Part shown: in pieces, positions 2,325 to 3,077 of the stretch
Position numbering within the stretch: the stretch's first letter is position 1
Layout of the letters: the number at the start of each line of letters is the position of its first letter
Origin: an uncultured Haemophilus sp.
GTDB lineage: Bacteria; Pseudomonadota; Gammaproteobacteria; Enterobacterales; Pasteurellaceae
Length of the DNA: 6,592 nucleotides
Assembly: GCA_959600045.1 (NCBI GenBank)
Contig: CAUGKJ010000048.1
Span: forward strand, 1 to 6,592
Reading direction: 5' to 3'
Notes under the pieces: model-generated
Database searches by the model: none
Told to the model about the DNA's origin: nothing
The model's input: the letters and a program-made list of their open reading frames with translations, nothing else
Translations under genes and position numbers: made by a program

Positions 2325-3077
2325 TTATTCTTCGCCTAATTCGCCCATTGCAGTGATGCTGAAACCTGCATCTACGTGAACGATTTCACCAGTAATACCA
2401 GATGCTAAATCAGAGCATAAGAATGCTGCAGAGTTACCCACATCTTCGATAGTAACTGTACGGCGTAATGCTGCGGTTTTCTCGAAGGTAGCAAGCATTT
2501 TCTTGAAGTTTTTAATACCTGATGCCGCTAAGGTACGGATTGGACCTGCAGAAATTGCATTCACACGAATACCTGCTTCAAGAGATGCTTTCGCTAAACA
2601 CATCACGTTGTAGTTAGGAATTGCGCGCTCTGCACCTAAGTAAGAAAGGGTTAATAACGCTGCATTTGGATTTAAGTAAGGACGTGCCGCTTGTGCCATA
2701 GCAACAAAGCTGAATGCACTGATGTCGTGAGCGATACGGTAGCCTTCACGAGTTGCTGCGTTTACGTAATCACCATCTAATTGATCGCCTGGTGCGAATG
2801 CGATAGCGTGTACGAAACCATCAAATTTTTCCCAACGTTTGCTTAATTCTGCAAAGCAGTTTTGGATGCTTTCATCGGTCGCTACGTCTAAAGGAAGGAC
2901 GATGTCAGAACCAAATTCTTTTGCAAATTCTTCTACGCGTGGTTGTAATTTATCGTTTAAATAAGTGAAAGCAAGTTCAGCACCTTGTTCTTTCATTGCT
3001 TTTGCGATCCCGTAAGCAATAGAACGGTTGCTTGCAAGACCTGTCACTAAAATACGTTTACCAGTTAAGAAACCCAT
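2325..3077 (-). CDS. fabI: Enoyl-[ACP] reductase (NADH), FabI, with an apparent 12-residue internal deletion
   Basis: FabI reduces trans-2-enoyl-ACP with NADH in the last step of each type II fatty-acid elongation cycle. It is a cytoplasmic homotetramer of the SDR fold. The product starts MGFLTGKRILVTG as in E. coli. It has the nucleotide-binding GLASNRSIAYG (13-23), D64, Y146, catalytic Y156 and K163, and the AISAGPIRTLAASGI region. Residue 93 is Ala where E. coli has Gly. The length is 250 residues against 262 in E. coli. Alignment from memory puts the whole difference after A168: E. coli continues with 12 residues (169-180, the end of helix alpha-5 and the next loop) before GVRVNAIS, whereas here GIRVNAIS follows directly. 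The loss should distort the helix packed beside the active site and tetramer interface, so activity is doubtful. Start choice: an AGGA Shine-Dalgarno at 3084-3087 sits 6 nt from this ATG. An in-frame upstream ATG at 3146 would run through the promoter and is rejected. Confidence 0.95.
   Translation of the reverse strand: MGFLTGKRILVTGLASNRSIAYGIAKAMKEQGAELAFTYLNDKLQPRVEEFAKEFGSDIVLPLDVATDESIQNCFAELSKRWEKFDGFVHAIAFAPGDQLDGDYVNAATREGYRIAHDISAFSFVAMAQAARPYLNPNAALLTLSYLGAERAIPNYNVMCLAKASLEAGIRVNAISAGPIRTLAASGIKNFKKMLATFEKTAALRRTVTIEDVGNSAAFLCSDLASGITGEIVHVDAGFSITAMGELGEE

Follow-up and report, generated by a model that had tools for sequence, protein, structure and literature searches.

Here we describe a fabI gene, encoding the enoyl-acyl carrier protein (ACP) reductase FabI, that is short by exactly 36 bases in a 6,592-nucleotide contig from an uncultured Haemophilus sp. 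(this whole stretch of DNA is hereafter called the window). The gap takes out 12 codons in frame, and we regard it as probably an artefact that arose in assembly, library making, or sequencing and is absent from the living cell. The gene and the junction are located as follows.

2325..3077, minus strand: fabI, gene for enoyl-ACP reductase, with 250 codons and a stop; every related locus compared is 36 bases longer
2573..2574, no strand: junction of the 36-bp gap, with a placement ambiguous by 1 to 2 bases depending on the parental allele

The minus-strand frame translates into 250 residues, in which CLAKASLEA directly abuts GIRVNAIS. A profile scan returned NF005938 (enoyl-ACP reductase FabI) as the top curated family, and the protein matches known FabI (NF005938; E. 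coli FabI, PDB 7umw and 1c14) over its whole length except for one gap. Alignment to the E. coli protein (u3033; query residues 1 to 247 to chain residues 1 to 259) needs this gap of 12 residues and no other, and the missing segment lies in the stretch of helix that follows the catalytic Tyr-Lys pair and in the turn leading to the next strand. At the DNA level, exactly 36 bases are gone at plus-strand 2573/2574, all of which are present in 11 of 11 same-genus genomes. The original prediction had claimed an in-frame loss of 12 residues after the Tyr-Lys pair, with no other gap needed and a junction at this position. Both the translation and the E. coli alignment agree with the loss, a single 12-residue gap suffices against E. 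coli FabI and against each of 91 Pasteurellaceae loci, and the junction was placed correctly within the ambiguity given above.

The alignments show that Tyr146, Tyr156, and Lys163, which we take to be the catalytic residues, are kept together with the N-terminal cofactor-binding part. Unlike known FabI, the window protein has lost 12 residues from the helix beyond K163 and from the turn that follows, so that a complete helix from K163 to the next strand with the conserved spacing is absent. It scores 438.3 bits against NF005938, while two full-length Haemophilus-type proteins score 470.8 and 469.0 bits and the FabIs of the 11 genomes score 466.7 to 470.1 bits; the curated cut-off of 477 is missed by the full-length Haemophilus-type proteins too. 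Apart from this one exact event, the gene is 96.0 to 98.4% identical to its counterparts in the four nearest named genomes, so that a chance resemblance can be set aside.

The segment in relatives and the state of the gene

The Pasteurellaceae comparison set comprised 91 loci (80 plus 11 further ones, or 87 places once 4 duplicates are removed). All 91 (87 without duplicates) contain the 12-residue segment, and the gap in window FabI, which has no other, is placed after residue 168 in 90 of these comparisons and after residue 169 in one. Alignment to Pasteurellaceae FabI had been put forward as a check on the original prediction, and it yielded no close relative without the segment. Among 120 proteins listed from a clustered database, for which our counts cover the listed entries and not the members inside clusters, 119 contain the segment, with 12 residues in 118 and 16 in P0070; the sole listed protein without it, P0011, has lost it inside a larger gap of 33 residues. 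The exact gap of the window was observed in none of the 91 loci and none of the 120 listed proteins. In addition, a 19-base junction pattern, either exact or with the first base changed, was found at two loci each in viral_contigs, and none of these four matched FabI by tblastn.

When indels opposed by at least 6 of the 11 same-genus genomes are counted, none but the 36-bp gap falls within a gene, and all others are intergenic; three of these genomes (L094, L097, and L098) align to just part of the window. The remaining fabI codons display 0 to 4 non-synonymous and 11 to 42 synonymous differences from the 11 genomes, which makes the gene look fully selected up to the present. On these comparisons, the rest of fabI and the adjacent genes have the look of ordinary H. 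parainfluenzae sequence under selection. Pseudogene decay is unsupported, given the few non-synonymous changes in the remaining 250 codons.

Comparison of the flanks with related genomes revealed no allele switch at the join, and the allele of one genome (G005, locus L092) matches the window without a difference over 41 bases to one side of the join and 84 to the other. Microhomology at the cut amounts to one base with seven alleles and two bases with four, or 0 to 2 bases by a further set of placements. As 27% of the 36-bp cuts in the allele of H. parainfluenzae strain C2006002596 (L002) share at least two bases, the 1 to 2 shared bases at the junction do not point to a natural deletion driven by a repeat, and repeat-driven slippage is unsupported with microhomology this short.

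Internal gaps in database copies

Where aligned, six of the listed FabI entries share at least 96.5% identity with the window protein. Two of them, representing 4 and 2380 sequences, are full length, and the other four (P0011, P0022, P0037, and P0053) carry internal gaps of 33, 15, 22, and 33 residues, placed otherwise than the gap of the window. Each gapped entry consists of a single member from a single contig, with ena as the source of three and jgi of one.

As a control, a search with H. parainfluenzae FabG returned 50 entries at 96% aligned identity or more, of which 10 (including P0275 and P0302) show internal gaps of 1 to 11 residues. This count leaves out P0286 and P0288 (a gap plus a changed end), P0269 (a one-residue insertion), and P0295 (below 96%). 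Nine of the gapped entries come from ena and one from lgn, and none from ncbi or uniref; nearly all of the top-listed FabG entries are single-member, whether gapped or not. By eye, the gaps of P0282, P0284, P0296, and P0302 fall in or near the stretch that matches the gap of the window, in the helix behind the catalytic Lys and the strand thereafter, which may be chance. The gapped FabI and FabG entries resemble the window in being near-identical Haemophilus-type proteins with one in-frame internal gap, each a different one, yet they differ from it in the place and length of the gap and are known from protein sequences alone.

A second control weighs against a simple uniform rate of artefacts: none of the 120 listed entries for the Nif3-like protein encoded next to fabI has an internal gap, with matches listed down to 499 bits and clustering that may hide variants. 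Considering 0 of 120 here versus 10 of 50 for FabG, the rate of internal gaps is uneven.

In finished E. coli genomes, an intact fabI used as query found 5373 matching records, distributed over 5372 of the 5426 genomes. In a listing of 60 rows spread over these matches, even the weakest shows 100% coverage and 98.1% identity, and since the rows are ordered by falling match strength, a gap of this kind is not expected in any matched record. The same search left 54 of the 5426 genomes without a match and placed seven matches on plasmid-labelled records.

Neighbouring genes and closest genomes

fabI lies in the same gene neighbourhood as in its genus, with 8 of the 11 same-genus genomes aligning in one piece over the window. 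Searches for RNA families and transfer RNAs in the window found none. The neighbours are the following.

280..2259, minus strand: rnb, exoribonuclease II, open frame without indels
3163..3918, minus strand: Nif3-like dinuclear metal centre protein, open frame without indels
4162..5097, minus strand: lpxL/htrB, lipid A lauroyltransferase, open frame without indels
5195..6592, plus strand: hldE, heptose 7-phosphate kinase / 1-phosphate adenylyltransferase, 466 codons without a stop, running past the window end

Among the 80 loci, the closest to the window DNA are from H. parainfluenzae, with 94.5% identity over 6.6 kb to strain C2006002596 and 93.6 to 93.7% to L001 and L003. H. influenzae, the species that the original prediction had in mind, thus gives way to an H. 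parainfluenzae-like source.

Two side observations concern the comparison sets themselves. Of the listed Nif3-like entries (P0122 to P0241), 95 of 120 extend beyond the frame at 3163-3918 by more than 5 residues at the N-terminus, which suggests differing start-site annotation among the database copies. Furthermore, a record titled Pseudomonas stutzeri NCTC11607 (L012) encodes a FabI that is no more distant from that of the window (93%) than the FabIs of Aggregatibacter and Rodentibacter are, and looks like a misnamed Pasteurellaceae genome.

Explanations of the gap and their consequences

An artefact is favoured because no compared relative has the gap and because gaps recur in FabI and FabG database copies, although not in those of the Nif3-like control. 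The contig is probably metagenomic and H. parainfluenzae-like, as indicated by a 6.6-kb piece that ends inside a gene, and the error would have joined two points of one allele. Two readings had been offered at the outset, namely, an introduced deletion and an altered or non-functional enzyme with a substitute elsewhere. The first is better supported, and for the second no substitute reductase was found in the 11 related genomes, where FabI, FabK, and FabV (the last with no positive control) were searched and FabL had no search with a model of its own.

A real gap would, according to predicted models, remove ten residues from the helix with Y156 and K163 along with some of the turn ahead of the next strand, in agreement with the anatomy of the original prediction, which had assigned the missing part to this helix and the loop to the next strand. 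AlphaFold gives the window protein a FabI-like fold with a helix at 156-168 and a strand at 171-177, versus a helix at 156-178 and a strand at 183-189 in the full-length protein; the predicted helix shrinks from 23 to 13 residues. The mean predicted local distance difference test score is similar for the short and the full protein, and AlphaFold confidence does not tell them apart. The shortened FabI, if the gap is real, would likely be inactive.

An inactive FabI is hard to square with the life of the cell, since the H. influenzae gene appears among those listed as essential: HI1734 stands in a table of predicted essential genes common to three experimental screens, as does fabG (PMC9040583). 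In N. gonorrhoeae, according to the introduction of a further study, inhibition of FabI is not overcome by exogenous fatty acids (PMC12446476). Titles and the first lines of abstracts offered nothing relevant on FabI in H. parainfluenzae.

These reports bear on the foremost alternative, a real deletion, of very recent date and in a single H. parainfluenzae lineage, that inactivates FabI while a substitute enoyl reductase gained elsewhere or an unusual growth condition sustains the cells. We consider it unlikely. A clean, in-frame gap, intact neighbours, and the lack of an allele switch at the join would all fit such a deletion; however, a gene no longer under selection would not need to keep its frame, and both the essentiality of fabI and the lack of rescue by fatty acids in N. 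gonorrhoeae speak against it. The gene content of the relatives points the same way. Each of the 11 related genomes has one FabI, with next matches at 40 to 42 bits (the FabG place in G002, where this was checked) plus one at 33 bits in G010. FabK (TIGR03151) is over its cut-off in none of the 11, with weak partial matches of about 24.5 bits in three, and FabV (PF12241) matched none of them, but this profile matched no control genome either. PF13561 gave three short-chain dehydrogenase/reductase matches in each of 4 genomes.

Very improbable, in our assessment, is a cross-strain chimera, with assembly having fused two different H. parainfluenzae alleles at the gap. The nearest genome does vary between stretches of the window, and a chimeric FabI exists in the database (P0050; 254 residues on a 6194-base contig), which changes at about residue 160 from the Haemophilus type to another bacterial FabI, but L001, L003, L092, and L093 are among the nearest on both sides of the junction. 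A real deletion leaving a compact FabI that still works, with the shortened helix letting the sheet form, draws on the FabI-like fold and similar mean confidence given by AlphaFold and is hardly credible beside the predicted damage to the helix.

If the gap is an artefact, as we think probable, its message is one of caution: lone near-identical entries with single in-frame gaps, even in essential genes, should not be taken as new enzyme variants without reads. It is quite improbable that a living H. parainfluenzae lineage carries a 250-residue FabI with its catalytic helix nearly halved, either working or made dispensable by a kind of reductase unseen in its relatives. If this were true, Haemophilus could do without FabI or with a shorter one, and this would matter for the use of FabI as a drug target.
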